This document shows, in pieces, positions 4,013-51,151 of a stretch of 64,000 nucleotides of DNA. The position numbers and the translations under genes were made by a program. Every line of letters starts with the position of its first letter. Position 1 is the first letter of the stretch. Location: positions 1 to 64,000 of the forward strand of contig NZ_JONK01000004.1 of the NCBI RefSeq assembly GCF_000711885.1, read 5' to 3'. This DNA comes from Chromobacterium haemolyticum DSM 19808. Its GTDB lineage: Bacteria > Pseudomonadota > Gammaproteobacteria > Burkholderiales > Chromobacteriaceae. The notes under the pieces are model-generated. The model was not told the DNA's origin. It ran no database searches and saw only the letters and a list, made by a program, of their open reading frames with translations.

Positions 4013-4155
4013 GAACGTGTTTACGATCTCGCGAGCTAAGGCGAGACAAGGCGAATACGGCTGAGAAAGTGGAGTGTACGCGTGCTGCATGAGCGTTTCG
4101 AAGCGGTGCTCGCCGTGGGACGTATCACGACGCGCAGCAGATCGTAAACAAGTTC
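4013..4155 (+). repeat. Palindromic MITE-like repeat, copy R1 (143 bp)
   Basis: The left end is GAACGTGTTTACGATCT and the right end AGATCGTAAACAAGTTC, an imperfect inverted repeat. It is flanked by TGA at 4010-4012 and TGA at 4156-4158, a 3-bp direct repeat of the form TNA. The left TGA is the stop codon of the cholesterol oxidase gene. Confidence 0.85.
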
Positions 4156-4176
4156 TGAAGCTTGAAGAGAGCGGAG

Positions 4177-4207
4177 ACGGCGCGCCTTCCTGGCGCGTCG
4201 TTTTTTT
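4177..4207 (+). terminator. Rho-independent terminator after cholesterol oxidase
   Basis: A 10-bp stem (4177-4186 with 4192-4201, one G-T pair) has a 5-base loop and runs into seven T residues. It lies beyond repeat R1, so the oxidase transcript would carry R1 in its 3' untranslated region. Confidence 0.75.
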
Positions 4208-4287
4208 GCGCGCTCGCTTACGCCGGGCGGCGAAGGCTACACTATAAGCGTTCCCACCGCGCCGGATTCGCGCCATTCCGCCCAGCC

Positions 4288-5562
4288 ATGCCATCCTGTT
4301 ACGCCCAAGTCGACTGCAATTCCTTTTACGCTTCCTGCGAGCGGGTGTTCAGCCCTGGTCTGGCCGGCTTGCCCATTGTCGTGTTGTCCAACAACGACGG
4401 CTGCATCGTGTCGCGCTCGGCCGAGGCCAAGGCTTTGGGCGTGCCCATGGGCGCGCCTTACTTCCTGCACAAGGCGCGGCTGGAGCAGTTGGGCGTGGCG
4501 GTGTTTTCCTCCAACTACGCCTTGTACGGCGATTTGTCCGGCCGCGCGATGCGGCTGCTGGCCGGCTTCGCGCGCGCGCAGGAGGTGTATTCGATAGATG
4601 AATGCTTTCTGGACATCGGCGGCGAGCCGGAGCCGGAACGGCTGGCGCAAGAGATGCGCTATGCCATGCTGCGTGGCCTGGGCCTGCCTGTGTGCGTCGG
4701 CATCGGCCCCAGCAAGACCTTGGCCAAGCTGGCCAACCACCTGGCCAAGCAAAACCCGGCCTGCGACGGGGTGATGAATCTGCAAGCGCTGGACGCGGCG
4801 GAGCTGCGGAGCTTGCTGGCCGCCGTGCCGGTGGAGGATATCTGGGGCGTGGGACGCAAGCTTTCGGTCAAGCTGCGGCTGGAGCGCATAAACCACGCCG
4901 CGGCGCTGGCGGCTGCGGACCGGGATTGGCTGATCCGCCGTTTCGGCGTCACTGTGGCGCGCATCGCCGACGAACTGGACGGCCTGTCCTGCCTGAGCCT
5001 GGAGGAGGCGCTGCCGCCGAGGCAGTCCTTGATGTCCACGCGCTCCTTCGGCCACAAGGTGACGCAGCTGGAGGAGGCGCGCGAGGCGGTGTCGATGCAC
5101 GCGGCGCAAGTGGCGGAGCGTTTGCGGCGACAAGGCTCTCTGGCCTCCTTCCTGCAAGTGAGCCTGCAACGCGGCGTGTACCAGCAGGGCACGGTGCAGC
5201 GAGACGGCGAGGTGGTGCCCTTGCTGCCGGCCAGCGCCGACAGCCGGGTGTTGGTGGCCGCGGCCAGCCGAGCGCTTGAACGCTTGTGGCGGCCTGGAGC
5301 CAGCTACCAGAAGTGCGGGGTGATGGCCTGGCAATTGGTGGACGCGGAGCGGGCGCAGCCGGACCTGTTCGCCAGCGGGCCGGATCCTGAGAAAGGGAAA
5401 CGCTTGATGGCGGCGCTGGACGCGATCAACCAGCGCATGGGCCGTGGGACGGTCAAGTTGTTGGCGGAAGGCTTGGAACAGCCTTGGAAGATGAAGCAGG
5501 ACATGTTGTCGCCGGCCTATACCACGCGCTGGGAAGATATTCCGGTGGCGAAGGCGAAATAG
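4288..5562 (+). CDS. umuC: Y-family DNA polymerase, UmuC-like
   Basis: The 424-residue product matches the usual UmuC length. Catalytic acidic residues are visible as D9 in VDCNSFYASCE and D104-E105 in SIDECFLD. The little-finger region follows, and the C-terminus (WKMKQDMLSPAYTTRWEDIP) is the tail typical of UmuC. It should act in error-prone translesion synthesis. In enterobacteria UmuC works with cleaved UmuD, but no umuD lies upstream or downstream here, so a partner must be encoded elsewhere or be dispensable. The start is ATG 4288, where family similarity begins. I could not find a convincing LexA box in the short upstream region. Confidence 0.92.
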   Translation: MPSCYAQVDCNSFYASCERVFSPGLAGLPIVVLSNNDGCIVSRSAEAKALGVPMGAPYFLHKARLEQLGVAVFSSNYALYGDLSGRAMRLLAGFARAQEVYSIDECFLDIGGEPEPERLAQEMRYAMLRGLGLPVCVGIGPSKTLAKLANHLAKQNPACDGVMNLQALDAAELRSLLAAVPVEDIWGVGRKLSVKLRLERINHAAALAAADRDWLIRRFGVTVARIADELDGLSCLSLEEALPPRQSLMSTRSFGHKVTQLEEAREAVSMHAAQVAERLRRQGSLASFLQVSLQRGVYQQGTVQRDGEVVPLLPASADSRVLVAAASRALERLWRPGASYQKCGVMAWQLVDAERAQPDLFASGPDPEKGKRLMAALDAINQRMGRGTVKLLAEGLEQPWKMKQDMLSPAYTTRWEDIPVAKAK

Positions 5563-5691
5563 CGGCGGCGGAAAGCGGATTGCGCCCCGGCTCTTGGAGT
5601 AAAATGCCGCTCTTGATTTGCAACTTCGCGGGGCCAGGGCGGTGGCTATAGTGCAATCAAGCCGCCGCGCGCCGCACTTGAAAGCGAGACA

Positions 5692-7104: not shown

Positions 7105-7112
7105 ACAGGCTT

Positions 7113-8639: not shown

Positions 8640-8645
8640 GTGCCG

Positions 8646-9316: not shown

Positions 9317-9456
9317 GATTCTGTTTACGATCTCGCGAGCTAGAGCGATACAAGGCGAAAACGGCTGAGAAAGCGGAATGTACATAAGGTACATGAGCAT
9401 TTTGAAACCGTTTTCAACGCCGTATCGCCGACGCGCAGCAGACTATGAACAGCTTC
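9317..9456 (+). repeat. Palindromic MITE-like repeat, copy R2 (about 140 bp)
   Basis: It has the same orientation as R1. The left end has decayed (GATTCTGTTTACGATCT); the right end is GACTATGAACAGCTTC. The TTA that follows (9457-9459) is the antisense of the ubiE stop codon TAA. The centre holds ATGTAC-5-GTACAT. It splits the ubiE and ubiJ genes of an otherwise tight operon. Confidence 0.8.
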
Positions 9457-10191
9457 TTAGAACTTGTAGCCCTTGTGCAGGGCTACCACGCCGCCGCTCA
9501 TATTGTGGTAGTCCACCTTGCCGAAGCCGGCGTCCAGCATCATCTGCTTCAGCGTCTCCTGATCTGGATGCATGCGGATGGATTCCGCCAGGTACTGATA
9601 GCTGTCGGGATCGTTCGCCACCAGCTTGCCCATGACCGGCAGCGCCTTGAAGGAGTAGAAGTCGTAGAACGGCGACAGCGGTTTCCATACTTTGGAGAAC
9701 TCCAGCACCATCAGTTTGCCGCCCGGCTTCAGCACCCGGCACATTTCCTTCAGCGCCGCATCCTTATGCGTCATATTGCGCAGGCCGAAAGCTACCGACA
9801 CCGCGTCGAAGTAATTCTCGGGGAAGGGCAGTTTCTCCGCGTCGGCCAGCGAGACCGGCAGTATCAGACCTTCGTCCAGCAGCCGGTCGCGGCCCACGGT
9901 CAGCATGGAGCTGTTGATGTCGGTCAGCCACACTTCGCCGCTCTTGCCCACGCGCTTGGCCCAGCCTCGGGACAGGTCGCCGGTGCCGCCGGCGATGTCC
10001 AGCACCTTGTCGCCGGCCTTGACGCCGGAAGTGGTCAGGGTGAAGTGTTTCCACACCCGGTGCAGTCCGCCCGACATCAGGTCGTTCATCACATCGTATT
10101 TCTTGGCCACCGAGTGGAACACATCGGCCACCTTGGCGGCTTTTTCGCTTTCGGCTACGGTCTTGAAGCCGAAGTGGGTCGTCTTGTCCAT
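9457..10191 (-). CDS. ubiE: Ubiquinone/menaquinone C-methyltransferase UbiE
   Basis: The 244-residue class I SAM-dependent methyltransferase shows [12 protein letters not shown] near the start, [10 protein letters not shown] (SAM motif I) and the family signature around LRNMTHKD. It methylates the quinone ring of demethylmenaquinone or the 2-polyprenyl-6-methoxy-benzoquinol intermediate. ATG 10191 is preceded by GGGAG and lies 2 bp after the stop of the DUF971 gene, so the two are translationally linked. The stop TAA is the flanking trinucleotide of repeat R2. Confidence 0.97.
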
Positions 10192-10193
10192 GG

Positions 10194-16389: not shown

Positions 16390-16398
16390 CCCCGCTCA

Positions 16399-16541
16399 GA
16401 GCCTGTTCAAAGTCTCGCGAGCAAGGGTGAGACAAGGCGAAAACGAGCGAAAAAGCCGAATGTACACGTGGTACATGAGCATTTTGAGCTTGTATTCACC
16501 GTGCAACGCTCCACGAAGCGCAGCAGACTTTGAACTGGTTC
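16399..16541 (+). repeat. Palindromic MITE-like repeat, copy R3 (143 bp)
   Basis: The ends are GAGCCTGTTCAAAGTCT and AGACTTTGAACTGGTTC. The flanks are TCA (16396-16398) and TTA (16542-16544): both fit TNA but differ in the middle base. The centre holds ATGTAC-ACGTG-GTACAT. It lies between convergent genes, and the queF stop is 12 bases beyond the right end. Confidence 0.85.
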
Positions 16542-16552
16542 TTAGAACAACC

Positions 16553-28375: not shown

Positions 28376-29578
28376 ATGTCTCTGCCGATCAGCCAGCTGG
28401 ACAGCTACACCATGCTGCATGTGATGCGCTCCACCCACCTGTCCGTGCCGCACGCCTTGTTGGGCGCTGCCTTGCTGACCGGCCTGGAATGGGGGAGGGC
28501 GCCGCTTGCGGCCGCCTTGCTGTGGCTGCTGCTTTTTAGCCTGCTGCTGCTGAGCTTGTGGGGCACCACTTGGCGCGCCAGCCGCTGCCCCGAACACGAC
28601 GATTGGCAGATCGCCGCCTTGTATCGGCGCTTCTCAGCGCAGATCGTCGCCGCGGGCTCGGGCTGGGGCGCCGCGGCCTGGATTCTGATGCCTGGAGACG
28701 ATCTGACATATAGTCTGATCGTGGTGCTGTGGGGCATTGCGGTCAGCGCGGTGCAAGGCGCGATGCTGTCGGCGCGCCGTGAGCTGTTTTATGGTTTCGT
28801 CGGTCCGCTCTGGGGCTTGCTGCTGCTGCGTCTGTTCCTCTCTCCGGAGCCGGTGCTGCGCTGGGTGGGCGCTTCCGGCCTCGTCTATTGCCTGTCGCTG
28901 ACGTTGTTCACCTCTTTGTTGCATCGCTTTGCGCTGGAGTCCATGGGACAGCGCGCAGAAAACGCCAGCCTGATGCGAGAGTTGACGTTGGAGCAGGCGC
29001 AGTTGGATAGTTACAACGCGATGCTGGAGCAGAAAAACATAGAACTGGACGGGGCGGTGGAGCGCATCAGCGAGCTGGCCTCGCGCGATCCCTTGACCGG
29101 CGTGTTGAACATGCGCTCCTTGATGCGGGAAATGGAGCGCTTGCTGGAACATTCGGAAACCCAGGGCGCGCCTTTCGCCATCGCCATCATCGATCTGGAC
29201 CATTTCAAGCGCATCAACGACAGTTGCGGCCATGCGCGCGGCGACGAGGTGTTGCAACAGCTGTGCGCGCTGGCGCAGCAGGCGCTGGTGGATGGCGAGC
29301 TGTTCGGCCGTTACGGCGGGGAGGAGTTCCTGCTGCTGGCGCCTGCCTGCAGCGGCTCTGAGTTGAACCGGCGCATGGAGGCGCTGCGCGGCAAGGTGGG
29401 TGGCTGGGACTGGCGGCGTCTGACCGGCGACTTGCCCGTGACCTTGTCCTGCGGCGTGGCCGCCTGGCGGCGGGGCGTGGACCCGCTGAGTCTGCTGCAA
29501 CAGGCGGACAAGGCGCTGTATCAAGCCAAGGCGCAGGGGCGCGACCGCGTCTGCCTGGCGAGAGAGGGCGAGGCGTGA
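28376..29578 (+). CDS. Membrane-bound diguanylate cyclase (GGDEF), first of a pair
   Basis: The 400-residue protein has about five to six hydrophobic helices in residues 1-185, a short coiled segment (EQKNIELDGAVERISELASRD contains the linker) and a GGDEF domain from about residue 240. The active-site loop reads RYGGEEF, so synthesis of c-di-GMP from two GTP is expected. The product-inhibition site RxxD, normally just before RYGG, is absent (VDGE in that position). The membrane part matches no sensory domain I recognise. It overlaps the next GGDEF gene. Confidence 0.9.
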   Translation: MSLPISQLDSYTMLHVMRSTHLSVPHALLGAALLTGLEWGRAPLAAALLWLLLFSLLLLSLWGTTWRASRCPEHDDWQIAALYRRFSAQIVAAGSGWGAAAWILMPGDDLTYSLIVVLWGIAVSAVQGAMLSARRELFYGFVGPLWGLLLLRLFLSPEPVLRWVGASGLVYCLSLTLFTSLLHRFALESMGQRAENASLMRELTLEQAQLDSYNAMLEQKNIELDGAVERISELASRDPLTGVLNMRSLMREMERLLEHSETQGAPFAIAIIDLDHFKRINDSCGHARGDEVLQQLCALAQQALVDGELFGRYGGEEFLLLAPACSGSELNRRMEALRGKVGGWDWRRLTGDLPVTLSCGVAAWRRGVDPLSLLQQADKALYQAKAQGRDRVCLAREGEA

Positions 29579-30807
29579 GGCGGAGACTGGGCATTCTGAT
29601 GCCGTTTCCCTGGCAAGCGCCTCATCCGCAGTTGGAGGCGGAATTGGTGCGTCAGTTCGTTTCCATGCTCCAGCTTTCGATTCTGCAGTCTTTCATCGCC
29701 ATCCCGCTATTTGGTCTGCTGATGTTCGGGCATGCGCCCGGCTGGCGCATCTTGAGCTGGGTGGGGATGTTCCTGCTGATGCAGTTGCTGTTCGCGCGCC
29801 TGGTTTATCGTTTTCGCCGTGACGCGCATAGCCAGGATCAAGTGTTCCGGCATTATCAGGCGCTGCGGCAGTTGATGCTGTTCAGCGCGCTGGTGTGGAG
29901 CATGATGATGTGGTTCATGTTTCCCCAGACGGAGGGGCCTTACCGCATCGTGGTGGTGCTGTGGCTAGCCGGCGGCTTCGCCGCGGTCTGCCTGCTGCTG
30001 GCCCCGTGCCGCGATCTGCACCTGACGTTTTTCGTCGGTTACTGGATATACCCGCTGTATCGTTTCCACTGCGAGGGCACTTTGCTGTACAGCGCTTTGC
30101 TGGTGGGCGCGGTGATCTTCATCCTGGTGCAGTGGGAATTCCTGTCCAGCTTCAATCCCCTGCTGCGCGACACCGTGAGACTGCGCGAGCGCAATGCGGT
30201 GGTGCTGCGCTGCCTGCAAGCGCTGTACGCGGAAAGCGCGGCCAAGCGGGAACTGCTGGAGCAGCGCAGGCAGATGTTGCAGCAGGCGGCTGAGCAGATG
30301 AATCTGCTGGCGGACTCCGACGTGTTGACCGGCTGCTTGAATCAGCGGGCCTTGCGTTGCCGGATGGCGGAACTGGATCAGTCCAACGAGGCGGTCTGGA
30401 GCCTGGCGATGTTGGATCTGGACGAGTTCAAGCAAGTGAACGACCGCTTTGGCCATTTGGTGGGCGACCAGGTGTTGCAGCAGGCGGCGCAGCTCATTGC
30501 CTCCTGTCTGGAGGGCTGGATGACGCTGGCGCGCTATGGCGGAGAGGAGTTTGTGGTGCTGGCCCCTGGCTTGGCGCCTGAGAGGCTGGCGGAGAAGATG
30601 GAGGCGGTCAGGCTGCGCCTGGCCCAAGCTCAACTGGACGGATTACCCGACGGCTACGCGCAGACGGTGTCCATCGGCGTGGCGGGCCAGCCGCCACTGA
30701 ACGGCAGCCAGCAGGCTTTGCTGCAGGCGGACGCCGCCTTGTACCGGGCCAAAGCATCCGGTCGCAACCGGGTGTGCGTGTGGGACGCTGAGCCGGAGCG
30801 GGGTTAG
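29575..30807 (+). CDS. Membrane-bound diguanylate cyclase (GGDEF), second of a pair
   Basis: The 410-residue protein has the same plan: five to six membrane helices to about residue 200, a coiled coil (ESAAKRELLEQRRQMLQQAA) and a C-terminal GGDEF domain with RYGGEEF. The RxxD inhibitory site is again missing. GTG 29575 overlaps the upstream stop (GTGA), implying translational coupling; ATG 29599 is the alternative. The two neighbours look like a diverged tandem duplication. The stop TAG (30805-30807) overlaps the TTA flank and first base of repeat R4. Confidence 0.88.
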   Translation: MRRRLGILMPFPWQAPHPQLEAELVRQFVSMLQLSILQSFIAIPLFGLLMFGHAPGWRILSWVGMFLLMQLLFARLVYRFRRDAHSQDQVFRHYQALRQLMLFSALVWSMMMWFMFPQTEGPYRIVVVLWLAGGFAAVCLLLAPCRDLHLTFFVGYWIYPLYRFHCEGTLLYSALLVGAVIFILVQWEFLSSFNPLLRDTVRLRERNAVVLRCLQALYAESAAKRELLEQRRQMLQQAAEQMNLLADSDVLTGCLNQRALRCRMAELDQSNEAVWSLAMLDLDEFKQVNDRFGHLVGDQVLQQAAQLIASCLEGWMTLARYGGEEFVVLAPGLAPERLAEKMEAVRLRLAQAQLDGLPDGYAQTVSIGVAGQPPLNGSQQALLQADAALYRAKASGRNRVCVWDAEPERG

Positions 30808-30946
30808 AACCTGTTCACGATCTGCTGCGCTGCGGCGATACGGCGTTAAAAACAAGCTCAAAATGCTCATGTACCACGTGTACATTCCGCTTTTTCGCTC
30901 GTTTTCGCCTTGTCTCGCTCTTGCTCGCGAGATCGTGAACAGGCTC
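30807..30946 (-). repeat. Palindromic MITE-like repeat, copy R4 (140 bp, inverted orientation)
   Basis: The ends are GAACCTGTTCACGATCTGC and GAGATCGTGAACAGGCTC. Both flanks are TTA (30804-30806 and 30947-30949). It is inverted relative to R1-R3. The left TTA plus the first G of the element forms the stop codon of the second GGDEF gene. The right TTA is shared with R5. Confidence 0.88.
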
Positions 30947-30949
30947 TTA

Positions 30950-31089
30950 GAGCTTGTTCAAAGTCTGCTGCGCCGCGGCGATACGGCGTTGAAAACCGCT
31001 TCAAAATGCTCATGCACCGTGTGTACACTCCGCTTCTTCATCCGTTTTCGTCCTGTCTCGCTCTTGCTCGCGAGATTTTGAACAGGCTC
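30950..31089 (-). repeat. Palindromic MITE-like repeat, copy R5 (140 bp, tandem with R4)
   Basis: The ends are GAGCTTGTTCAAAGTCTGC and GAGATTTTGAACAGGCTC. It follows R4 head-to-tail with a single TTA between them; the right flank is TAA (31090-31092). R4 and R5 fill the gap between the convergent GGDEF and tesA genes; I see nothing else there. Confidence 0.88.
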
Positions 31090-31149
31090 TAATACAGTCG
31101 CCGCCGCAAATGTCCCGACGCAACGGAAAACCGCCGCGCGGGAGGTGTT

Positions 31150-31749
31150 TCAGCTCAGCGGCAGCTTGGCCTTGACCGTGCGCATCATCGCGGGCTGGGC
31201 GGCGGCGACAGGGTGCAGCCCGTCCGGTTGGAACTGGGACAAATCGGCCTCGAAGCCGGCCACCAGCAAGGGCACGAAGGAGAGGCGCTCGCGTTTGGCC
31301 AAGTCGGCGTAGGCTTTGCGGAACTCGGCGCCGTATTGCGGGCCATAGTTCGGGGGCAGGGCCATGCCCACCAGCACTACCTTGGCCTTGCTTTGTTTGG
31401 CCAAGGCGATCATCTTGGACAGGTTGCCGCGCATCTGCTCCAGCGGCAGGCCGCGCAGCCCGTCGTTGGCGCCCAGCTCCAGCACCACGATGTCCGGACG
31501 ATGGCGCGCCAGTGCGTCTGGCAACCTGGCCAGGCCGCCGGCGGTGGTTTCGCCTGAGATGCTGGCATTGACGATGCGGTGCTTCGCCCCCATCTCCTTG
31601 GCGAGCAGGCTGACCCAGCCCTGGCCGGGAGACAGGCCGTAACCGGCGGACAGGCTGTCTCCGAATACCAATATCGTGGCGGCGGACGCCGGCAACATCA
31701 GCAGGCACAGGCCGGCGGAAAGTAGAACTTTGCTTAGTATCGAGCGCAT
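31150..31749 (-). CDS. tesA: Periplasmic SGNH esterase/lysophospholipase, TesA-like
   Basis: The 199-residue protein has a signal peptide (MRSILSKVLLSAGLCLLMLPASA), then block I GDSLSAGYG with nucleophile S32, block III GANDGLRG with N95 and a C-terminal DGLHP that supplies the catalytic Asp and His. E. coli TesA is a thioesterase I/protease I/lysophospholipase L1 of the same size. ATG 31749 is only 2 bases from the ATG of the divergent ybbA-like gene, so each promoter must lie within the other gene. Confidence 0.93.
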   Translation of the reverse strand: MRSILSKVLLSAGLCLLMLPASAATILVFGDSLSAGYGLSPGQGWVSLLAKEMGAKHRIVNASISGETTAGGLARLPDALARHRPDIVVLELGANDGLRGLPLEQMRGNLSKMIALAKQSKAKVVLVGMALPPNYGPQYGAEFRKAYADLAKRERLSFVPLLVAGFEADLSQFQPDGLHPVAAAQPAMMRTVKAKLPLS

Positions 31750-31751
31750 AA

Positions 31752-32444
31752 ATGAATCCAATTGAAACTCAGGCGGTGTTGTCGGCCAGCGAGCTGGCCA
31801 AGCAGGTGCATTTCCACGGCGAGCCGCTGAACATCCTGCGCAGCGCCACGCTAACCCTGTATCCGGGCGAGAGCGTGGCCATCGTCGGCGCTTCCGGTTC
31901 CGGCAAGTCTACCCTGTTGTCCCTGTTGGCGGGTCTGGATCATCCGTCCGGCGGCGAGGTGTCCTTGTTTGGCCAAGCCTTGTCCGGCTTGAGCGAAGAC
32001 GCGCGCGCGCTGCTGCGCAGAGACAAGGTGGGGTTCGTGTTCCAGAATTTCCAGCTGATGCCGCAACTGACCGCGCAGGAAAACGTGATGCTGCCGCTGG
32101 AGCTGGCCGGCCGCGCCGACGCGCGCGAAGCGGCGCGCCAGATGCTGGACCGCGTCGGCCTCAGCCATAGGCTGGGCCATTATCCGCGCCACTTGTCCGG
32201 CGGCGAGCAGCAACGAGTCGCCTTGGCGCGCGCCTTCGTCATTCACCCCGGGCTATTGTTCGCCGACGAGCCCACCGGCAATCTGGACCCGCACAGCGGC
32301 CGCCAGATCATCGATCTGCTGTTCCAGCTCAACGCCGAGCAGGGCACCGCTCTGGTGCTGGTCACCCACGACACCGAGCTGGCCAGCCGCTGCGACGCCA
32401 TCTACCGGCTGGTGGAAGGCAAGCTCAACGGGGCGCGCTCATGA
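31752..32444 (+). CDS. ybbA: ABC transporter ATP-binding protein, YbbA/LolD-like
   Basis: The 230-residue ATPase shows Walker A GASGSGKST, the signature LSGGEQQRV and Walker B LLFADEPTG. It belongs to the MacB/LolD group that drives mechanotransmission rather than membrane passage. Together with the following permease and divergent tesA it reproduces the E. coli tesA-ybbA-ybbP locus. Its stop overlaps the permease start by four bases (ATGA). Confidence 0.92.
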   Translation: MNPIETQAVLSASELAKQVHFHGEPLNILRSATLTLYPGESVAIVGASGSGKSTLLSLLAGLDHPSGGEVSLFGQALSGLSEDARALLRRDKVGFVFQNFQLMPQLTAQENVMLPLELAGRADAREAARQMLDRVGLSHRLGHYPRHLSGGEQQRVALARAFVIHPGLLFADEPTGNLDPHSGRQIIDLLFQLNAEQGTALVLVTHDTELASRCDAIYRLVEGKLNGARS

Positions 32445-34933
32445 CTCTCGCCGGCCGCTTAACCTTGGTGTTGCGCTTCATCCGCCGCGAACTGGTGTCC
32501 GGCGAGCTCACCATCCTGGCCCTGGCTCTGGTGGTGGCGGTGATGGCGATGAGCAGCGTGGCCTTTTTCTCCGACCGCGTAGAGCGCGCGCTGACCACCC
32601 AGGCCACGCAGCTGCTGGCCGCGGACTTGGTGCTCAACGGCAATCAGCCGGCGTCGGAGCCTATCCGCCGCGAGGCGGAGAAGCGGGGCCTGCGGCTGGC
32701 CGACAACATCAGCTTTCCTTCCATGGTGTTTTCCGGCGGCCAGGCGGCTTTGGCCACGTATAAATCGGTCAGCGACAACTATCCCCTGCGCGGCGAAGTC
32801 AGCGTGAGGCTGGCCGACGGCCGCATCGCCAGCGGCAGCTTGCGACCGGCCGCGGGCACTGCCTGGGCCGACGCCAGGCTGATGCGGCGCTTGAAGCTGA
32901 AGCTGGGCGACACCCTGGGCGTGGGAGGCGCGCAACTGCGGCTGGCCGGCGAAATCATCCGCGAGCCGGACGGCGCGATGGATTTGTACAACTTCGTGCC
33001 GCGGCTGATGTTCAACCGCGCCGACCTGGCCGCCACCGGCCTGATCCAGGAAGGCAGCCGCGCGCGGTGGCGCTTGATGTTCGCCGGCGACGATCGCGGC
33101 ATCGCCGATTTCCGCCAGTGGCTGGACAAGGCCAAGCCCAAAGACGCGCGGCTGGAAAACGTCGAGGAGGCGAGGCCGGAGGTGCGCACAGCGCTGGAGC
33201 GCGCGCGGCGCTTTCTCGGCCTGACCGCGATGCTGACCGTGGCGCTGGCCGCGTCAGCGGTGGCGCTGGTGGTTCGCCGTTACCTGGCGCGCCATTGGCA
33301 GCAGGTGGCGGTGCTGCGCTGCCTGGGTCTGACGGCGGGCGAGGTGTGGGGCTTGTTCGTCAGCCTGTTTCTATTGTTGGGGCTGCTGGCCGGCGCTTTG
33401 GGCACCGCCGGCGGCTTCGGTGTGCAACTGGCGCTGATGCGGCTCGCCAGCGGTTATGTCGGCGAGATTCTGCCGGATCCGGGCTGGCTGACCTGGCTGG
33501 TGGGGCCGTTGGCCTCGCTGGTGTTGCTGGCCGGCCTGGCTCTGCCGCCCTTGATGGGCATACGCGACGTGCCGCCGGCGGCGGTGCTGCGCGATGAATT
33601 GACGCCGACGCGTCAGGGCCTGCTGGCGCCCTTGCTGGCCCTGGTGGCGCTGCTGGGCCTGGCCGCCTGGCAAGTTGGCGACCTGGCTGTGGCCGGCTGG
33701 CTGCTGGCCGGCATGCTGGGTTTCTTCGCCGCGGTGGGCGCGCTGGCGCTGGGCGTGGTCTATCTGATGCGGCGGCTGCCGCGCGGACGCCGCGTGGGCT
33801 GGCGCTTCGGCATCGCCAATATCGCCCGCCGCCACTGGCTGGCGGTGATCCAGATCGTGTCCTTGTCGGTGGGCCTGATGGCCTTGCTGACGCTGACCAT
33901 TGTGCGCGACGACCTGATCGGCGCCTGGCAACGCAGCGTGCCGGCGGACGCGCCGAATAAATTCGTCATCAATATTCAGCGCCACCAGCTCGACGGCGTG
34001 CGCAACGCCTTCGCCGCGGAGGGACGCGCGGCGCCTGAATTGGCGCCCATGGTGCGGGCGCGGCTGATCGCGATCAACGAGCGCCCGGTACGGCCATCCG
34101 CGTATGAGGACGAACGCGCGCGGCGCTTGGCCGAGCGGGAGTTCAACCTCTCTTGGCGCGATGAGTTGCCGCCGGGCAACAAGCTGACGGCGGGCCAGTG
34201 GTGGCCAGTTCAGAAACGGATTCCGCCGCAGTTCTCGGTGGAACGGGAACTGGCCGGCACTTTGGGCATCAAGCTGGGCGATACGCTGGTTTTCGATCTG
34301 GCCGGCACCGCTTACCGCGCCAAGGTCACCAGTTTGCGCGAAGTGCCGTGGGACAGCTTCCGCGTCAATTTCTTCGTGATCGGCACGCCCGGTCAGTTCA
34401 GTCAGCAGCCGGCCAGTTGGATCACCAGCTTCCGGCTGGAGGCGGCGGACGAGGATTTCGTCAATCGCCTGGTGGGCGAGTTTCCCAATCTGACCGTGAT
34501 CGACGTCGGGGCGATCCTGACCGAGGTGAGGGCGATGATGGACAAGCTGTCGCGCGGCATCGAGGCCATGTTCGGCCTGGCCTTGGCCGCCGGCGTGCTG
34601 GTGTTGTGGGCGTCGCTGGCGGCCACTCGCGACGAGAGGCTGTTCGATGTCGGTCTGATGCGGGCGCTGGGGGCGTCGCGGCGGCAGGTGCGCAGCGTGG
34701 TGCTGGCGGAACTGGCCTGGCTGGGCGCGTTTTCCGGTTTATTGGCGGCATTGGGCGCGATGGGCATCGGCGCTTTGGCTTCGGTCAAATTGTTCAACCT
34801 GCCCTTGGTGTTCAATCCGTGGCTGTTGCCCGCCGGCATCGCCTGTGGCGCGCTAGTGGTGGTGGTGGCCGGTTGGCCGCTCGTCGGGAGAGTGACCCGG
34901 ACTTCGCCGATGGCGGTGTTGAGAGCGATTTGA
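32441..34933 (+). CDS. ybbP: ABC transporter permease, YbbP-like (FtsX family)
   Basis: The 830-residue protein has an N-terminal helix followed by a large periplasmic domain, two FtsX modules (around residues 255-380 and 700-830) and four additional membrane helices between them, the ten-helix plan of YbbP/AcbP-type permeases. Its substrate is not known; the fixed link to TesA suggests lipid or lipoprotein handling in the envelope. Confidence 0.9.
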   Translation: MTLAGRLTLVLRFIRRELVSGELTILALALVVAVMAMSSVAFFSDRVERALTTQATQLLAADLVLNGNQPASEPIRREAEKRGLRLADNISFPSMVFSGGQAALATYKSVSDNYPLRGEVSVRLADGRIASGSLRPAAGTAWADARLMRRLKLKLGDTLGVGGAQLRLAGEIIREPDGAMDLYNFVPRLMFNRADLAATGLIQEGSRARWRLMFAGDDRGIADFRQWLDKAKPKDARLENVEEARPEVRTALERARRFLGLTAMLTVALAASAVALVVRRYLARHWQQVAVLRCLGLTAGEVWGLFVSLFLLLGLLAGALGTAGGFGVQLALMRLASGYVGEILPDPGWLTWLVGPLASLVLLAGLALPPLMGIRDVPPAAVLRDELTPTRQGLLAPLLALVALLGLAAWQVGDLAVAGWLLAGMLGFFAAVGALALGVVYLMRRLPRGRRVGWRFGIANIARRHWLAVIQIVSLSVGLMALLTLTIVRDDLIGAWQRSVPADAPNKFVINIQRHQLDGVRNAFAAEGRAAPELAPMVRARLIAINERPVRPSAYEDERARRLAEREFNLSWRDELPPGNKLTAGQWWPVQKRIPPQFSVERELAGTLGIKLGDTLVFDLAGTAYRAKVTSLREVPWDSFRVNFFVIGTPGQFSQQPASWITSFRLEAADEDFVNRLVGEFPNLTVIDVGAILTEVRAMMDKLSRGIEAMFGLALAAGVLVLWASLAATRDERLFDVGLMRALGASRRQVRSVVLAELAWLGAFSGLLAALGAMGIGALASVKLFNLPLVFNPWLLPAGIACGALVVVVAGWPLVGRVTRTSPMAVLRAI

Positions 34934-34985
34934 GTTTGATGGTCAAAGCTGAGAGTCAAGCGGGGCGAAACCCGCAAGGAGACGC

Positions 34986-35513
34986 ATGATGGATGCGATA
35001 GTACAGGCGGCAATGGCCAAGTGGCCGAACGTGCCCGCCGTGTTTGGCTGGTTGCGGCTGGACGCGCGCGGCCAGTGGTGGATCAAGGACGAGCGCTTGC
35101 AGCATGAGGCGATGACCGAGTTTTTTGGCCGCAACTACAGCCGCGACGGTCTGGGGCGCTGTTATGTGCAGAACGGGCCGCAAAAAGTCTATGTGACGCT
35201 GGACGCCGCGCCGCTGGTGGCGCGGCGCACTCCGTCGGGTTGGAGCACGCTGCCGTACGACGACGACGTGCCGGCGCGCTCCGCCTGGCTGACGCCGGAA
35301 GGCATGTTGTTGATCGAGATCGGCGGCGAGCTGGCGGCGGTGGATGACCGCGACCTGGCCGCGGTGCTGGAAGAAGGGGCGCCGGGCTGGGACGGCGACA
35401 TGGCCTCGTTGCCGGACAGGCTGGCGTTGGGCAAGGCGGCGATTCCGCTGGGGAAGGAGAGCCTGCCGGATTTGTGGCTGCGTTACGGCATTGTCGGACG
35501 GCCCAAAGGCTGA
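34986..35513 (+). CDS. Conserved hypothetical protein (DUF2946-like)
   Basis: The 175-residue protein has no signal or membrane helix. It begins MMDAIVQAAMAKWPNVPAVFGWLRLDARGQW, a pattern I associate with a betaproteobacterial DUF family, probably DUF2946, but the name is from memory. The start is supported by AAGGAG. It follows the ybbP-like gene by 52 bp and may share its transcript. It ends before a strong terminator. Confidence 0.75.
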   Translation: MMDAIVQAAMAKWPNVPAVFGWLRLDARGQWWIKDERLQHEAMTEFFGRNYSRDGLGRCYVQNGPQKVYVTLDAAPLVARRTPSGWSTLPYDDDVPARSAWLTPEGMLLIEIGGELAAVDDRDLAAVLEEGAPGWDGDMASLPDRLALGKAAIPLGKESLPDLWLRYGIVGRPKG

Positions 35514-35528
35514 GCCGTTTCACCGTCA

Positions 35529-35560
35529 AACAAAACCCCGGGCTTGCCCGGGGTTTTGTT
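35529..35560. terminator. Strong bidirectional terminator
   Basis: The 14-bp arms AACAAAACCCCGGG (35529-35542) and CCCGGGGTTTTGTT (35547-35560) pair perfectly around CTTG. With A-rich and T-rich sides it can work on both strands between convergent genes. Confidence 0.88.
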
Positions 35561-35578
35561 TGGTCCGCGGATGGCTTA

Positions 35579-35721
35579 GAACCTGTTTACGATCTCGCGA
35601 ACAAGGGCGAAACAAGGCGAAAACGGCTGAGAACGCCGAATGTACATGGCGTACATGAGCATTTTGAGCTTGTACTCACCGTGCAACGCTCCACGAAGCG
35701 CAGCAGACTTTGAACAAGCTC
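35579..35721 (+). repeat. Palindromic MITE-like repeat, copy R6 (143 bp)
   Basis: The ends are GAACCTGTTTACGATCT and AGACTTTGAACAAGCTC, with TTA on both sides (35576-35578, 35722-35724). The centre is ATGTAC-ATGGC-GTACAT. The right TTA is the antisense of the MFS gene's stop codon TAA. Confidence 0.9.
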
Positions 35722-36993
35722 TTAGAGCGGACGCGACTCCACCTGCACCAGACGCTTGCGCCCAGCCAACATGCCCATGGCGAAGGTGGCGGCGGAGATG
35801 AGCGTGAACAACAGACCCAGCGGCCACAAGCTGTGGGTCTGGTCGCGGATCAGGCCTACGCTGAGCGGACCGAGAGAAGCCAGCGCATAGCCGACGCCCT
35901 GGGCCATGCCGGACAGATGAGCGGCCACATGGGGATCCGGCGAGCGCAACGCCAGCAGGCTCAACGCCATGCTGAACAGGCCGCCTTGGCCCAGACCCAG
36001 CAGCACCGCCCAGAACAGCAGGCTGTCTGTCGGCGCGAACAGCATGCCGAGCAGGCCGCTGATCACCAGCGCCACGGTGACGGCGATCGGCGGGCGCTGG
36101 TCGCGACAGCGCTGTCCCAGCGCCGGCACCAGCAGCGAGGACACCACCTGCACCATGATGGAAATGGACAGCAGCAGGCCGGCGTGCAGCGCGGTCTCGC
36201 CGCGGTCTATCAGGATGGACGGCAGCCAGCCGAACACGATGTAGGCCATCGACGACTGCAAACCCATGAACAAGGTGACTTGCCAGGCCAAGGGATCGCG
36301 CAGCAAGCCGCGCACCAGCCATTGACCGTGATGGGACGCCTGCCGGATCCGCGTTTGCGGCCACCACACCAGCAAGGCCAGCAGCGCCGGGCTTGCCCAG
36401 ATCGCCAACGCGCCTTGCCAGCTGTCGCCCATCCAGCGCATGGCCGGCACGGTGAGACCGGCGGCCAGCGCCGCGCCCAGGCACAGCGCCATGGTGTAGA
36501 CCCCGGTCATCAGGCTGACCTGAGCGGGGAAGTCGCGTTTGACAATGCCGGGCAGCAATACGCCTATGACGCCGATGCTGGCGCCGGCCAAGGCTGAACC
36601 GGCGAACAGGCCGAATTGACCGAACTGAGTGCGCAGCAAAATGCCCAGCGCCAGCGTCACCAGGATGAGCGCGATGGTTTTTTCGCTGCCCCAGAGGCGG
36701 GCCAACCGCGGCGCCAAGGGGCCGAAAAGACCGAGACAGGCCACGGGCAGCGTGGTGAGTAGGCCGGCCATCAGGCCGCTGAGCCCGCGGCTGGCGGCGA
36801 CATCGCGCAGCACTGGGGACAGGCTGGACAGCGCCGGCCGCAGATTGACGCCGACCAGGATCAGGCCCAGCAGCAACAGCCAGGGACGGTGCAGCGCGGG
36901 ACGTTGGCTTTGCACGCCGGCGTCGTCTATCTCGGCGTCGATCAGCGTGTCTTCGACCGGCAAATGATCCGGCACGGATTTGGAGGTGGACAT
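35722..36993 (-). CDS. MFS transporter, CynX/NimT type
   Basis: The 423-residue protein has a charged, cytoplasmic N-terminus of about 45 residues and then twelve membrane helices. The first transmembrane motif, GVNLRPALSSLSPVLRD, is typical of the CynX/NimT (cyanate, nitroimidazole) branch of the major facilitator superfamily. The substrate is unknown. ATG 36993 was chosen for its AAGGAAG site over an upstream start. The adjacent GntR-type gene lies 71 bp upstream in the same direction and probably controls it. Confidence 0.88.
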   Translation of the reverse strand: MSTSKSVPDHLPVEDTLIDAEIDDAGVQSQRPALHRPWLLLLGLILVGVNLRPALSSLSPVLRDVAASRGLSGLMAGLLTTLPVACLGLFGPLAPRLARLWGSEKTIALILVTLALGILLRTQFGQFGLFAGSALAGASIGVIGVLLPGIVKRDFPAQVSLMTGVYTMALCLGAALAAGLTVPAMRWMGDSWQGALAIWASPALLALLVWWPQTRIRQASHHGQWLVRGLLRDPLAWQVTLFMGLQSSMAYIVFGWLPSILIDRGETALHAGLLLSISIMVQVVSSLLVPALGQRCRDQRPPIAVTVALVISGLLGMLFAPTDSLLFWAVLLGLGQGGLFSMALSLLALRSPDPHVAAHLSGMAQGVGYALASLGPLSVGLIRDQTHSLWPLGLLFTLISAATFAMGMLAGRKRLVQVESRPL

Positions 36994-37064
36994 GGGTCTT
37001 CCTTCTGCGCTTTTGTTGTTGTCGGAGCGGGCTCCCCGCGCCAGGGGGCCGACTCGAATCTGGC

Positions 37065-37763
37065 TCAAGCCGCGGCGGAGCGATTGAGCAAGCGGTCCAG
37101 CGCCTCCAGCAGGGGGCGGGTGATGGCGGCGGCGGCGCGCGCGGCCTCGTCCGGCCGGCGCAGCCGGATGGCTTCGTAAATGGCGTGGTGGGCGGCGAGG
37201 TCAGGGTCCGGCAGGGCCTCATCGAGGATGGATTGCTGCACGTGTTGGCGCACCGCGCGCGAAAAATAAGCGTAGAGTTCCGCCAGTGCCTGGTTGCCGC
37301 TGGCGTTGGCGACGGCGAGATGAAATTCCAGATCTCGTTCGATGAAGTTTTCCAGAGGCTCCTGCGGCAGCCGCTCTCCACGCCGCGCGAGCGCGTCCGC
37401 TATCGCGCTGAGATCCGCTTCCGGGCAGCGGCTGGCGGCCAGCCGCGCGGCGTTTTCCTCCAGCATGCAGCGCACTTCCAGATGTTCGCGCAGGCTGGCG
37501 CGGCTGATGGCGCGCATGGCGTCGCCGGGGTTGACCGTGGCGCGCACATAACTGCCGTCGCCCTGGCGCACTTCCAGCAGGCCGGCGTAAAGCAGCACCC
37601 GCACGGCTTCGCGCACCGTGTTCCGGCTGACGCCCAACTGTTCCGCCAGTTCCGGCTCGGTGGGAATGCGCGCGCCTAACGGCCAATCGCCGTCCGCCAG
37701 CCGCTTGGCGATGTTCTCCACCGCAATGTCGACTAGCGAGCGTTTATAGGGAAGCGCCGACAT
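37065..37763 (-). CDS. GntR-family (FadR/FCD) transcriptional regulator
   Basis: The 232-residue protein has a winged helix-turn-helix in the first 75 residues (IPTEPELAEQLGVSRNTVREAVRVLLYAGLL) and an FCD ligand domain with the metal-binding Asp and His residues (D...HLAVANASGN, later AAHHAIYEAI). ATG 37763 has AGGAG at ideal spacing; ATG 37781 is possible but weaker. It should sense a small carboxylate and act on itself and the MFS gene. A palindrome just upstream is a candidate operator. Confidence 0.92.
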   Translation of the reverse strand: MSALPYKRSLVDIAVENIAKRLADGDWPLGARIPTEPELAEQLGVSRNTVREAVRVLLYAGLLEVRQGDGSYVRATVNPGDAMRAISRASLREHLEVRCMLEENAARLAASRCPEADLSAIADALARRGERLPQEPLENFIERDLEFHLAVANASGNQALAELYAYFSRAVRQHVQQSILDEALPDPDLAAHHAIYEAIRLRRPDEAARAAAAITRPLLEALDRLLNRSAAA

Positions 37764-39505: not shown

Positions 39506-39769
39506 TTACTTGGCCGGGGCCGCGTCCTTCACGCATTTCTTCACGAAGCTGGCCTTGGCCGCGCCGGCCAGTTTCTTCTCGGCGGCTTTGGCGTCACAGC
39601 TTTTTTGGGCGTTGGCGGCGGCGCCGTCTTTCTCGCATTTCTTCAGGAAGCTGCTCTTGGCGGCGCCGGCCAGTTTTTTCTCGGCGGCTTTGGCGTCGCA
39701 GGCGGCGTCAGCCAGCGCCAGGTTGGCGGAAGTCAGGGCCAGAACAGCGATCATCAGGTATTTGCGCAT
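39506..39769 (-). CDS. psiF: PsiF-repeat periplasmic protein
   Basis: The 87-residue protein has a signal peptide (MRKYLMIAVLALTSANLALA) and two nearly identical PsiF repeats, each beginning CDAKAAEKKLAGAAK and ending SFxKKCxKD. Each repeat holds two cysteines. In E. coli psiF is phosphate-starvation inducible and lies next to phoA; its role is unknown. No phosphate gene is nearby here, and I saw no Pho box. Confidence 0.9.
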   Translation of the reverse strand: MRKYLMIAVLALTSANLALADAACDAKAAEKKLAGAAKSSFLKKCEKDGAAANAQKSCDAKAAEKKLAGAAKASFVKKCVKDAAPAK

Positions 39770-46911: not shown

Positions 46912-46925
46912 AGCGGAGAAAGCGC

Positions 46926-47318: not shown

Positions 47319-47342
47319 TGTCTTGTTACTTGGAAAACGTCA

Positions 47343-48119: not shown

Positions 48120-48163
48120 TGCCCGTCATGTCAAGAAATCGTTAATAATCAATCGCTTTTATT

Positions 48164-48628: not shown

Positions 48629-48720
48629 TCGTGTTCTCCAGCCGCGGGAAAGACGCCGGCCGGGAAGGGCGGCCGACGGTCAGCGGATGGAAGCGATTGT
48701 AGGGAAAGCCGGCCTTCGCC

Positions 48721-49026
48721 TCAATCGCCAGCCGCTTTGGCGCGGAAAGCCGCCATTTCATCGGCGACGAAGTACTCTATCATCGTGCGGTAGACCGCCG
48801 CGGTCAGCGCCGCGTCGGCCCCCAGTTCGCCGGCCAGACGCTCGACGCGACGCATCACCTGATCGACGCGTTTGCCGCCTTCCACTTCGTCCCGGCTGTG
48901 CTTGAACGCCGGCGCCTGACGCACATAAAGGCCGCGCTCGGCGATTAGCGACACCAGAGCGCGGTCGATGCGGTCGATCTGGCCCCGCACCTCATCCAGG
49001 TTTTGGCATTGGTAGATCTGTTCCAT
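48721..49026 (-). CDS. Stand-alone AroQ-type chorismate mutase / isochorismate-pyruvate lyase-like protein
   Basis: The 101-residue protein is a single AroQ helical domain. The pattern LDEVRGQIDRIDRALVSLI and the tail IEYFVADEMAAF look more like PchB (isochorismate-pyruvate lyase, salicylate synthesis) than like the P-protein mutase, but the two activities overlap in this fold. No salicylate or siderophore gene is adjacent; the NRPS at the far left of the window is 47 kb away. Start at 49026, preceded by AAAGGC. Confidence 0.8.
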   Translation of the reverse strand: MEQIYQCQNLDEVRGQIDRIDRALVSLIAERGLYVRQAPAFKHSRDEVEGGKRVDQVMRRVERLAGELGADAALTAAVYRTMIEYFVADEMAAFRAKAAGD

Positions 49027-49039
49027 TAAAAGCCTTTCG

Positions 49040-49163
49040 GAATCGGTTTCATAGCCTAACAAGCTAGGGCGAGACAAGGCGGAGGCTGCTGTGTGGCGCA
49101 TGGGCATGCCGGAGTCGTTCCCAACGCCGTATCGCTGAAGCGCGGCAGACGATGAACAGGTTC
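49040..49163 (+). repeat. Palindromic MITE-like repeat, copy R7 (about 124 bp, diverged)
   Basis: The right end GATGAACAGGTTC is intact and followed by TCA (49164-49166), the antisense of the trpS stop TGA. The left end (GAATCGGTTTCATAG) has drifted, and the middle is shorter and lacks the ATGTAC/GTACAT hairpin. The core GCTAGGGCGAGACAAGGCG identifies it. Confidence 0.75.
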
Positions 49164-50186
49164 TCAGTAGTAGTTCAAGCCCATCGCCGCTTTAACCTCG
49201 GCCAGCGTGGCGGCCGCCACCGCGCGTGCGCGCTGGGTGCCGGTCTTCAGCATCTCCATCACCGCGGCCGGATCACGCGCGTACTGCTCGCGGCGGGTGC
49301 GGGTTGGTTCCAGCAAGGCCTGCAGGCATTCCTCCAGCTGTTTCTTGATCACGGTGTCGCCCAGGCCGCCGCGGCGGTAATGATCCTTCCATTCCGCCAC
49401 TTGCGCCGGGTCGGAATGGAATACGTCCAGATAGGTGAACACCACATTGCCTTCCACCTGGCCCGGGTCGGCGACGCGCAGGTGATTGGGGTCGGTGTAC
49501 ATCATCTTCACCGCCTGGCGGATCTCGTCAGGCGTGGCCGACAAAGTAATGGTGTTGCCCAGGGATTTGGACATCTTGGCCTTGCCGTCGATGCCGGGCA
49601 GGCGGGAGCCGTGTTCCGGCACCACCGCGCGCGCTTCCACCAACACCGTTTGATCTACGCTGGCGTTGAAGCGGCGCACGATCTCATTGGTCTGCTCGAT
49701 CATGGGAATCTGGTCTTCGCCCACCGGCACGATGCTGGCCTTGAAGGCGGTGATGTCCGCGGCCTGGGCGGCGGGGTAGGTGAGGAAGCCGGCGGGGATG
49801 TCGCGCTCGTAGCCGCGCTGCTTGATCTCGTCCTTGATGGTGGGGTTGCGCTCCAGCCGCGCCACGGTGACCAGGTTGAGATAGTAGGAAGACAGCTCGG
49901 TCAGCTCCGGCACCAGGCTCTGGATGAAGATGGTGCTTTTTCCCGGGTCTATGCCCACCGCCAGGTAATCCAGCGCCACCTGCAGCACATTGTCGCGTAC
50001 CTTCAGATAGTTGCCCATATTGTCGGTCAGCGCCTGGGCGTCGGCGAGCAGCAGGAACTGACGGCAACGGTCTTGCAAAATCACGCGGTTGCGCAGCGAG
50101 CCGACGTAGTGGCCCAGATGCAGTTGTCCGGTGGTGCGGTCGCCGGTGAGGATGATGTCTTTGGCTGTGATGTTGTCCAGATTCAT
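49164..50186 (-). CDS. trpS: Tryptophanyl-tRNA synthetase
   Basis: The 340-residue class I synthetase has the HIGH-equivalent [11 protein letters not shown] and KMSKS in [10 protein letters not shown]. An insertion relative to the shortest TrpRS places it with the common bacterial type. The protein ends GLNYY and its stop TGA lies in the flank of repeat R7. The 220-bp region upstream shows no gene; I see no T-box or leader-peptide signal. Confidence 0.97.
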
Positions 50187-50405
50187 ATTGGTCTCCAGTG
50201 AGCTTGCTGGAAACTGCCGATCCGGGGGAGGAGAGGTACTGCTGGAAACCCTATGCCGCCGTATCGGCAGCTTCCGGGTTTTGGGTGTGCAAACGCCGGT
50301 GCCGCCTTAGTTCAGGCGCCACCACCAAAAAAAGGATGCGAATGCGGTTGCGTAGTTCATGGGCTTTATCAGAGCACGGCGAGCAAAGCAGCGTCAAGCG
50401 TCTTT

Positions 50406-50705
50406 TCAGGCCAGGACATGCAGCAGGCTGCCGGCCGGCGGCATGAGGTCTTCGGAATAGGGCGAATCATTCTTGTTTCGGGCCGCGCTCTGAGCTTGGC
50501 GCAACAGCCGTTCGAAAGACTCACCGTGGGAAGCGGCATCCCTGTTGGTCGTGGAGGATTGCGGGTGTGGAGCGACGAACTCCGCCATTTCCTTGCGCGG
50601 GTCGCTGGCGGCGGCGCGGCTGTCAGTCTTGGCGGCGACCGCGCTCACTTGTCTCAACGGCGAGGCGGCGGCCTTGAGTTGCGCGGTGATGGAGAGGATA
50701 TGCAT
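50406..50705 (-). CDS. Hypothetical protein, 99 residues
   Basis: The frame has strong G/C third-position use over its whole length, as expected of a real gene here. The product is soluble, polar (Ala, Ser, Arg-rich) and has no motif I know. The start has no good ribosome site. The short product and isolation keep confidence moderate. Confidence 0.5.
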   Translation of the reverse strand: MHILSITAQLKAAASPLRQVSAVAAKTDSRAAASDPRKEMAEFVAPHPQSSTTNRDAASHGESFERLLRQAQSAARNKNDSPYSEDLMPPAGSLLHVLA

Positions 50706-50896
50706 CGGGGGGCCCGGTTCAAGGGATCAAGATGCTTGTTTGAGAGCGCCTGCTTGCTATATGTTCCGGTCGAAATTGTAAAAAAGTGATAATAAACAAA
50801 GTGCTATATGGATATTGTTGCTGAGCTTCTTAGGCGGTGGGCATGAAAACGGCCGGGCGACGCCGGCCGGTTCCAATGGGATACGGGCAAGGCTTA

Positions 50897-51008
50897 GAGC
50901 CGCTAACAAAACCTCGCAGAGAACCTGAGCCAAGGCGCGCCGACGCAGGCAGTACAAGTCGTACGACAAGGAGGCGCAACGCAGGATCAGGAGTTTTGTT
51001 AGCGGGTC
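50897..51008 (+). repeat. Second palindromic MITE-like element, S1 (112 bp)
   Basis: The ends GAGCCGCTAACAAAACCTC (50897-50915) and GAGTTTTGTTAGCGGGTC (50991-51008) form an inverted repeat different from the R family. TTA lies on both sides (50894-50896 and 51009-51011). The centre holds GTAC-AAGTC-GTAC. The right TTA is also the left flank of R8. The bases between 50706 and 50896 contain no gene that I can support. Confidence 0.78.
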
Positions 51009-51011
51009 TTA

Positions 51012-51151
51012 GAGCCTGTTCAAAGTCTCGCGAGCTAGGGCGAGACAAGGCGAAAACGAGCCAACAAGCGGAATGGTCAAGTGGTGCATGAGCATTTCTA
51101 GGATGTTTTCAACGCCGTATCGCCGAAGCGCAGCAGATTTTGAACAGGTTC
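51012..51151 (+). repeat. Palindromic MITE-like repeat, copy R8 (140 bp)
   Basis: The ends are GAGCCTGTTCAAAGTCT and CAGATTTTGAACAGGTTC, with TTA on both sides (51009-51011, 51152-51154). The right TTA is the antisense of the ppsR stop TAA. Confidence 0.9.

Follow-up and report, generated by a model that had tools for sequence, protein, structure and literature searches.

How eight short palindromic repeats came to be scattered over one stretch of a Chromobacterium genome, and why so many of them abut a gene exactly at its stop codon, are the questions raised by the DNA analyzed here. The window, by which we mean the whole stretch, opens contig C3 and is 64 kb long; the draft genome to which it belongs (G000, 5.03 Mb) is of the C. 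haemolyticum group, and one protein of the window is 98% identical in C. haemolyticum, 97% in C. alkanivorans and 96% in C. aquaticum. We consider it probable (roughly 87%) that the repeats are a family of non-autonomous, IS5-type miniature inverted-repeat transposable elements (MITEs) of about 140 bp, here called family A, which would be moved in trans by IS5-family transposases inserting at C-TNA-G (N, any nucleotide). A preliminary description of the window had listed eight palindromic copies with a common core and their flanks. We located all eight at its coordinates and found every flank as it had been described (Table 1), including the decay on one side of the copies at 9317 and 49040. 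The copies are real repeats; their palindromes, however, are imperfect, and the 49040 copy falls outside the matches to the core pattern.

A 19-nt core of family A, searched with up to three mismatches, gave 8 matches in the window compared with 0.04 expected; the match at 29809 is no element. A terminal 10-mer (up to one mismatch) matched 17 times compared with 2.6 expected. Seven of the eight copies are full length (140 or 143 bp) and score 124-148 bits with a profile built from those same seven, while the degenerate 49040 copy, whose central stretch is missing, reaches 49 bits. Across the genome the core gave 363 matches (174 + 189), as against 3 (2 + 1) for the reversed pattern. For most of the statistics given below, we used a sample of 464 kb, made up of the window and 20 stretches of 20 kb; since these were picked for holding core matches, mostly several, densities in the sample are not genome averages. 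The profile found 89 A hits in it, with both ends present in 69 under a strict rule and in 73 under a slightly looser one. Genes in the sample were called with a custom script that scores codon usage (418 genes, 83% coding). Family A is non-coding and possesses terminal inverted repeats, whose outer helix is paired in 91.9% of the cells in an alignment of 59 copies.

The flanks of these copies are those of a mobile element. Among the 69 full copies, TNA stands on the left in 53, on the right in 59 and on at least one side in 68, and in 34 the two TNAs are identical. Identical flanks of any kind likewise occur in 34 of the 69, whereas permutation gave a mean of 14.2 and a maximum of 25 in 5000 trials. 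Copies elsewhere in the genome thus have the TNA flanks that had been proposed from the window. Over the regions orthologous to the window, we made 84 flank comparisons among five genomes and found both flanks in 44; of these, 26 sites were filled, 4 were exactly empty (one TNA and no element), 13 were near-empty and 1 was intermediate. The near-empty class was set by a gap rule, and some of its 13 members are perhaps not true empty sites. Three of the four exact cases relate to a single additional tandem copy of G011. No case is clearer than the 4013 copy, whose site is empty in that genome and retains a single TGA; at the site of the 16399 copy, G014 and G022 have a single TTA within CGCTTAG. 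Empty sites in relatives, and TNA duplications around copies elsewhere in the genome, had been named in advance as the evidence on which the MITE interpretation of the eight repeats would turn, and that interpretation is supported.

The preliminary description had also suspected an IS5-family insertion sequence (IS) with the same ends, located elsewhere in the genome, as the mobiliser. Such an element exists: an 850-bp IS at G000:C3:189664-190513 (IS alpha), accompanied by a second, multi-copy one (IS beta). Genome searches placed PF13340 at 24 and PF01609 at 27 positions, many of them at contig ends, as one would expect if multi-copy ISs had collapsed in the assembly. The transposase of IS alpha is split over two overlapping frames and belongs to the IS5 family (NF033580, 148.5 bits for orfB at a cut-off of 110; 91.2 bits for orfA alone); the transposases of IS beta and of a third element, IS gamma, were assigned by PF13340/PF01609 only. 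Family A shares its ends, restricted to the outer ~17 bp (GAACCTGTTTACGATCT or GAGCCTGTTCAAAGTCT), with IS alpha and IS beta. Derivation of A from IS alpha by simple internal deletion was rejected; as judged by eye, nothing further inward looks common. The ends of A fall into an alpha-type (TTCAA), a beta-type (TTTAC) and a third type (TTCAC), and the same type stands at both ends in 36 of 50 typed copies (19 copies with an untyped end left out), compared with a permutation mean of 17.3 and a highest value of 31 in 20,000 (p = 5e-5). A TNA target duplication is typical of some IS5 groups (IS1031, ISL2), and that of A fits this feature, as NF033580 fits IS alpha; unlike these ISs, A encodes nothing. 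From the shared ends we infer that A is mobilised in trans. The assembly breaks inside near-identical copies of IS beta and IS gamma on contigs C5, C6, C13, C17, C19, C30, C31, C40 and others, a sign of recent multiplication of these two elements.

The preferred target is longer than TNA itself. At the 34 clean A sites, C precedes TNA in 23 and G follows it in 24, and both are present in 16, whereas both surround only 4.6% of 3006 element-free intergenic TNAs. The IS flanks behave alike: among those distinct by 80 nt, all 35 have TNA, preceded by C in all 17 beta flanks and in 12 of the 18 gamma flanks; when collapsed over 40 nt, TNA is present in 33 of 33, every one TTA or TAA, and 27 have the C. 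The two ends of one IS copy were counted separately in these figures since contigs break inside. Transposases recognizing the ends of A (GAACCTGTTTACGATCT or GAGCCTGTTCAAAGTCT) would thus insert at C-TNA-G and duplicate the TNA. With G as its first base and C as its last, A restores CTNAG at either junction: an insertion would yield CTNA-G...C-TNAG, and each copy would provide two new targets, at which A, B (a second small family, see below) and IS copies could stack on shared TNAs. Of the 188 CT[AT]AG sites in the sample, 66 are element edges, 20 lie within elements, 41 are coding, 11 are other stops and 50 are other intergenic sites. Abutting pairs (gap of 3 or 4) involve 18 of the 107 A/B hits. 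A copies extend up to the IS edge in 8 of 17 beta flanks, as against 1 of 18 gamma flanks.

Five of the eight window copies adjoin a gene whose stop codon is the flanking TNA, and each of these genes has a Pfam match. In the sample, the target-site duplication (TSD) also serves as the stop codon of the neighboring gene for 33 of 73 copies, and not one of the copies interrupts a called gene. When genes were called strictly, 25 of the 73 were at distance 0 from a stop, compared with 20 over distances 1-60 together and 3 at -1; within 30 bp of an element edge there are 41 stops versus 2 starts. When TNA sites within the same gap were used as reference, 32 of 63 copies were at the stop and 20.4 were expected (P = 2e-4). 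CTNAG context itself is found at 54 of 326 element-free TNA stops (17%) compared with 4.6% of other intergenic TNAs. Only one of the 66 A copies with both neighbors called (7 of the 73 were left out for want of a called left neighbor) is placed between divergent genes, compared with 691 of 2988 intergenic TNA sites and 28 of 250 CTNAG sites; this scarcity suggests that insertions into promoters are selected against. If a stop codon lies within C-TAA/TGA-G (or TAG in TTAG), the duplication would rebuild it and leave the gene intact. Copies surviving selection against insertions in genes and promoters would then be those at gene 3' ends, in many cases right on the stop. Where A adjoins a stop, its two orientations with respect to that gene are unequally represented (23 versus 11), which is suggestive only.

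Several observations weigh against mobilisation by these ISs, or against the importance of stop codons. Actual movement of A elements is never seen in these data. The overlapping frames of IS alpha appear to need a +1 or -2 shift, and given this overlap its copy may be dead, while full-length IS beta or IS gamma was not seen and their copies break at contig ends. A search of G011 and G022 for the IS alpha transposase gave no match, despite 260 and 220 core matches in these genomes; the end fragments of IS beta and IS gamma were unmatched in G022, a search run without a positive control that divergent relatives could escape. Conversely, G023 has transposase pieces of 71% identity and is without the A core. 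Therefore, transposase and MITE are not tightly coupled today. None of nine B copies has identical TNAs on both sides under the B profile, perhaps through profile ends misplaced by a base or two. When the expectation at stops was weighted for CTNAG context, with weights learnt from 31 non-stop copies, it rose to 28.7 versus the 32 of 63 found (P = 0.18), and B copies are at a stop in 3 of 10 cases versus 1.4 expected (P = 0.13, not significant). The CTNAG preference accounts for most of the stop-codon excess, and no targeting of stops as such follows.

The position at gene 3' ends, with the near absence between divergent genes, is also what one would expect if the elements were domesticated 3'-end modules, i.e., bidirectional terminators or mRNA-stabilising hairpins kept at stops for their benefit to the genes. 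We regard this as unlikely. Folding speaks for it, since seven of the eight window copies fold better than shuffles (z -2.0 to -8.2; +0.4 for the degenerate copy) and the stem pairs covary. In an alignment of 59 A copies of 138-144 bp out of the 73 (A1), 86.8% of the cells pair according to the structure of a single copy, and 140 cells have changed on both sides versus 67 in shuffles and 8-29 in slid controls; such double-change counts, here and in the second alignment described below, are inflated by related sequences and refer to a structure taken from one of the sequences aligned. The RNAalifold consensus of A1 is weaker (26 pairs, 4 with double changes). Several distinct inner stems occur, e.g., ACGAGC/GCTTGT, ACAGGC/GCCTGT, and TTGGC/GCCAA. 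However, sister species differ in their insertion sites, and pairing is equal in copies at stops and in others (0.870 versus 0.866, P = 0.72). A scan of 30700-36000 gave four terminator-like sites where 5.3 were expected and none in the three A copies there, and the stop-codon excess is mostly due to CTNAG context. Private stem substitutions break pairs in 43 of 55 cases, so that pairing seems to be maintained in active lineages rather than in resting copies.

Rather improbable, in our view, is direct targeting of stop codons, by the transposase or by a host factor such as translation termination, in place of CTNAG. Where a gap offers at least five TNA sites, the stop is the site taken by 16 of 34 copies, versus 9.3 expected after context weighting (P = 0.004); this subset was chosen afterwards, however, and across all 63 copies the weighted excess shrinks (P = 0.18), as stated above. 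Moreover, a called stop ends 3 of the 15 beta flanks and none of the 18 gamma flanks (flanks with the same last 40 nt counted once). That the elements are immobile, old repeats resembling repetitive extragenic palindromic sequences and spread by recombination or vertical descent, is hardly credible: many copies are diverged and some relatives have copies without a detectable cognate transposase, but target duplications, insertion into the duplications of other elements, ISs with the same ends, and empty sites contradict it, the exact one at 4013 already by itself.

The MITE reading of family A leaves room for a further question, namely which part of the element persists. A-like interiors were found in Pseudomonas and Halomonas in a plasmid collection, and more in IMG/VR contigs, where four of nine loci (L228, L230, L231, L232) were dropped as apparently unrelated matches to a short pattern. 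When six such elements were aligned to the 30807 copy, their interiors were 64-77% identical over 103-105 positions, whereas the outer 16 bp agreed at 3-8 of 16 (one end at 10). The two ends of each of the six agree with one another at 14-16 of 16 positions, except in P. veronii (7 of 16, with an offset left boundary). The best shifted match of the foreign end types to A ends is 6-10 of 16, where 6.5-6.6 is the expectation from shuffled ends. Chance suffices for the GTACGAAAA type (P = 0.18, 0.83) and the Halomonas CTCTGATTAAC type (P = 0.22); the GTCTGAAAA type is borderline (P = 0.06), and the TTGAAAAACG type is weakly similar, slightly above chance (P = 0.02, 0.05). The GTACGAAAA and GTCTGAAAA types resemble each other at 10-11 of 16 positions. 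A second alignment (A2) combined 18 sequences of various end types; it left out L234 (core centre only), L237 (long insert in the core), L242 and L240 (twins of L241 and L225), L249 (truncated where its contig stops), L252, and the viral-contig copies of A, and retained L239 despite its near identity to L238. In A2, the inner 25 pairs are paired in 91.6% of cells, with 42 double changes versus 12.8 in shuffles and 3-8 in slid controls.

A tentative reading of these comparisons is that the persistent unit is the palindromic hairpin core of about 105 bp, whose shape compensatory changes would preserve, and not the ends. It may have acquired several sets of terminal repeats, i.e., those of A, of the GTACGAAAA/GTCTGAAAA group, of the Halomonas CTCTGATTAAC elements and of the weakly A-like TTGAAAAACG type, and so could ride different IS transposases in Beta- and Gammaproteobacteria. 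Should this apply, the core might do something that helps itself, such as forming a fold on single-stranded DNA or in RNA. The ends could instead have come to differ by slow divergence. The replicon of Halomonas sp. PA16-9 (L226, L252) carries this hairpin core between two kinds of terminal repeats: GGAGCCTCTGATTAAC ends at 1107.7 kb and GCTTTGTACGAAAAAT-type ends with CTAG/CTAA flanks at 1668.9 kb. In columns 100-119 of A1, the right arm has two forms, corresponding to the 140- and 143-bp classes, and each occurs with all three main end types, as if copies had recombined. At 30869-30941 of the window, a weak full-length match to the Rfam family sX9 (RF02228, a small RNA of Xanthomonas) runs from the centre of A out through one end; at 18.6 bits it is far below the gathering score of 44 and may be chance. 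sX9 might be transcribed from a Xanthomonas relative of A. At gathering score Rfam gave no match in the window, and a known RNA family for A was rejected, sX9 and others being below threshold.

Family A is unevenly distributed. Among the 61 genomes of the bacterial family that we searched, 5 of the 19 of the genus (G000, G011, G014, G015, G022) hold 220-363 core matches, and the other 14 hold 0-12, with 0-5 for the reversed control; in a different genus, six species reach 35-108. Four further genera and one low-copy species of the genus have related copies, most of them 75-90% identical among the matches listed. Among 24 of these retrieved with both ends, the TNA flanks are identical in 15, and at least one side is TNA in 23. 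Of 250 genomes of the order, 21 have a core match (up to two mismatches), and beyond the family, multiple matches are confined to two genomes (42 and 9); the pattern was taken from this genome, and variant families elsewhere would escape it. No A match was found in the phages collection. A copies are present on viral or prophage contigs of IMG/VR (L244, L245, L246, L248, L250), one of which has two, and such contigs are a possible vehicle for A between genomes.

Alongside A, the window contains a copy of a second family, B, which has IS gamma ends and a TTA target and adjoins the A copy at 51012. B is 112 bp long in the window; 40 genome matches were scored from the 128 candidates of a first look, and some have about 22 bp inserted. 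In place of the tandem A pair of the window (30947-31132), relatives (loci L031/L032) carry about 1.3 kb of other sequence, so that change at this hot spot apparently extends beyond the A elements. Within long open frames, direct repeats occupy 61430-62072 and 39510-39701 (families of 226 and 51 nt, and a 90-nt pair with a spacing of 102 nt).

Table 1. Copies of families A and B in the window, insertion sequences with related ends, and end types of elements with an A-like core (TSD, target-site duplication; ORF, open reading frame).
Feature	Position	Strand	Left flank	Right flank	Remarks
MITE A	4013..4155	+	TSD TGA 4010-4012	TSD TGA 4156-4158	left TSD is stop codon of ORF 2258-4012 (cholesterol-oxidase-type protein)
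MITE A	9317..9456	+	decayed	TSD TTA 9457-9459	right TSD is stop codon (TAA, - strand) of ubiE/COQ5-family gene
MITE A	16399..16541	+	TCA 16396-16398	TTA 16542-16544	
MITE A	30807..30946	-	TSD TTA 30804-30806	TSD TTA 30947-30949	first + strand base (G) completes TAG stop of ORF 29575-30807 (GGDEF protein)
MITE A	30950..31089	-	TTA 30947-30949	TAA 31090-31092	tandem with 30807 copy; TTA common to both
MITE A	35579..35721	+	TSD TTA 35576-35578	TSD TTA 35722-35724	right TSD is stop codon of MFS gene 35722-37068 (-)
MITE A, degenerate, internally deleted	49040..49163	+		TCA 49164-49166	right flank is stop codon (TGA, - strand) of class I tRNA-synthetase (W/Y type) gene 49164-50186 (-)
MITE B	50897..51008	+	TSD TTA 50894-50896	TSD TTA 51009-51011	ends match IS gamma; right TSD common to 51012 copy
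MITE A	51012..51151	+	TSD TTA 51009-51011	TSD TTA 51152-51154	right TSD is stop codon of kinase/pyrophosphorylase gene 51152-52003 (-)
IS alpha	C3:189664-190513		TTA	TTA	850 bp, one copy; ends GAGCCTGTTCAAAGTCT / GAACCTGTTCAAAGTCT
IS beta	many near-identical contig-end copies				ends GAACCTGTTTACGATCT
IS gamma	contig-end copies				ends GACCCGCTAACAAAACC
End type GGTCTGTACGAAAAGT	P. amygdali		CTAG	CTAG	
End type GGAGCCTCTGATTAAC	Halomonas		TTAA	TTAA	
End types GGCAATGTCTGAAAAGT, CAGRCCRTTGAAAAACG					A-like core elements
End type CAGGCCGTTGAAAAACG					A-like core element

Small mobile elements with some of these properties have been described in other bacteria. The Correia elements of Neisseria have a TA-type (2-bp) target duplication, which the 3-bp TNA of A does not fit. 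They resemble A as a high-copy small MITE of a betaproteobacterium and differ from it in their size classes of 107, 155, and 204 bp; the passages of the two papers that we used contain no link to stop codons as insertion sites (PMC10969869, PMC2229807). According to passages of PMC3189936, MITEPsy1 of P. syringae pv. phaseolicola, whose transposition was observed experimentally, is a 100-nt element with six copies in strain 1448A, ends GGAAGGTCTGAAAAAGCC and a 4-nt duplication of CTAG or YTAA. Like A, it is short and non-coding and combines a target duplication with terminal repeats resembling those of a resident IS5-family IS (ISPsy2). In a comparison that leaves the interiors aside, A is unlike MITEPsy1 in having ends other than GGAAGGTCTGAAAAAGCC, a 3-nt TNA duplication and hundreds of copies. 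MITEAba12 of Acinetobacter (113 bp; 90 copies surveyed, 40% with target duplications) is tied, as A is, to a co-resident IS through shared ends, but has 9-bp duplications, and its ends are reported as its most conserved part in the passages of PMC6382973 consulted. In contrast, when A is compared with its Pseudomonas and Halomonas relatives, the interior is most conserved. MITEs driven by IS5-family transposases are thus already known; we recognised no description of family A, or of stop-codon insertion by an IS5-type MITE, in our searches of the open-access literature.

Family A offers a clear case in which simple target chemistry, the rebuilding of C-TNA-G at both junctions, can explain how a bacterial MITE multiplies to hundreds of copies with little harm, since an element of this kind would make its own landing sites and regenerate the stop codons that it hits. 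The common core between different ends suggests that the interiors of MITEs can outlive and switch transposases; if they do, what has been assumed to be passive filler becomes the conserved part. Genome annotation in this clade is affected as well, since stop codons coincide with tandem elements.

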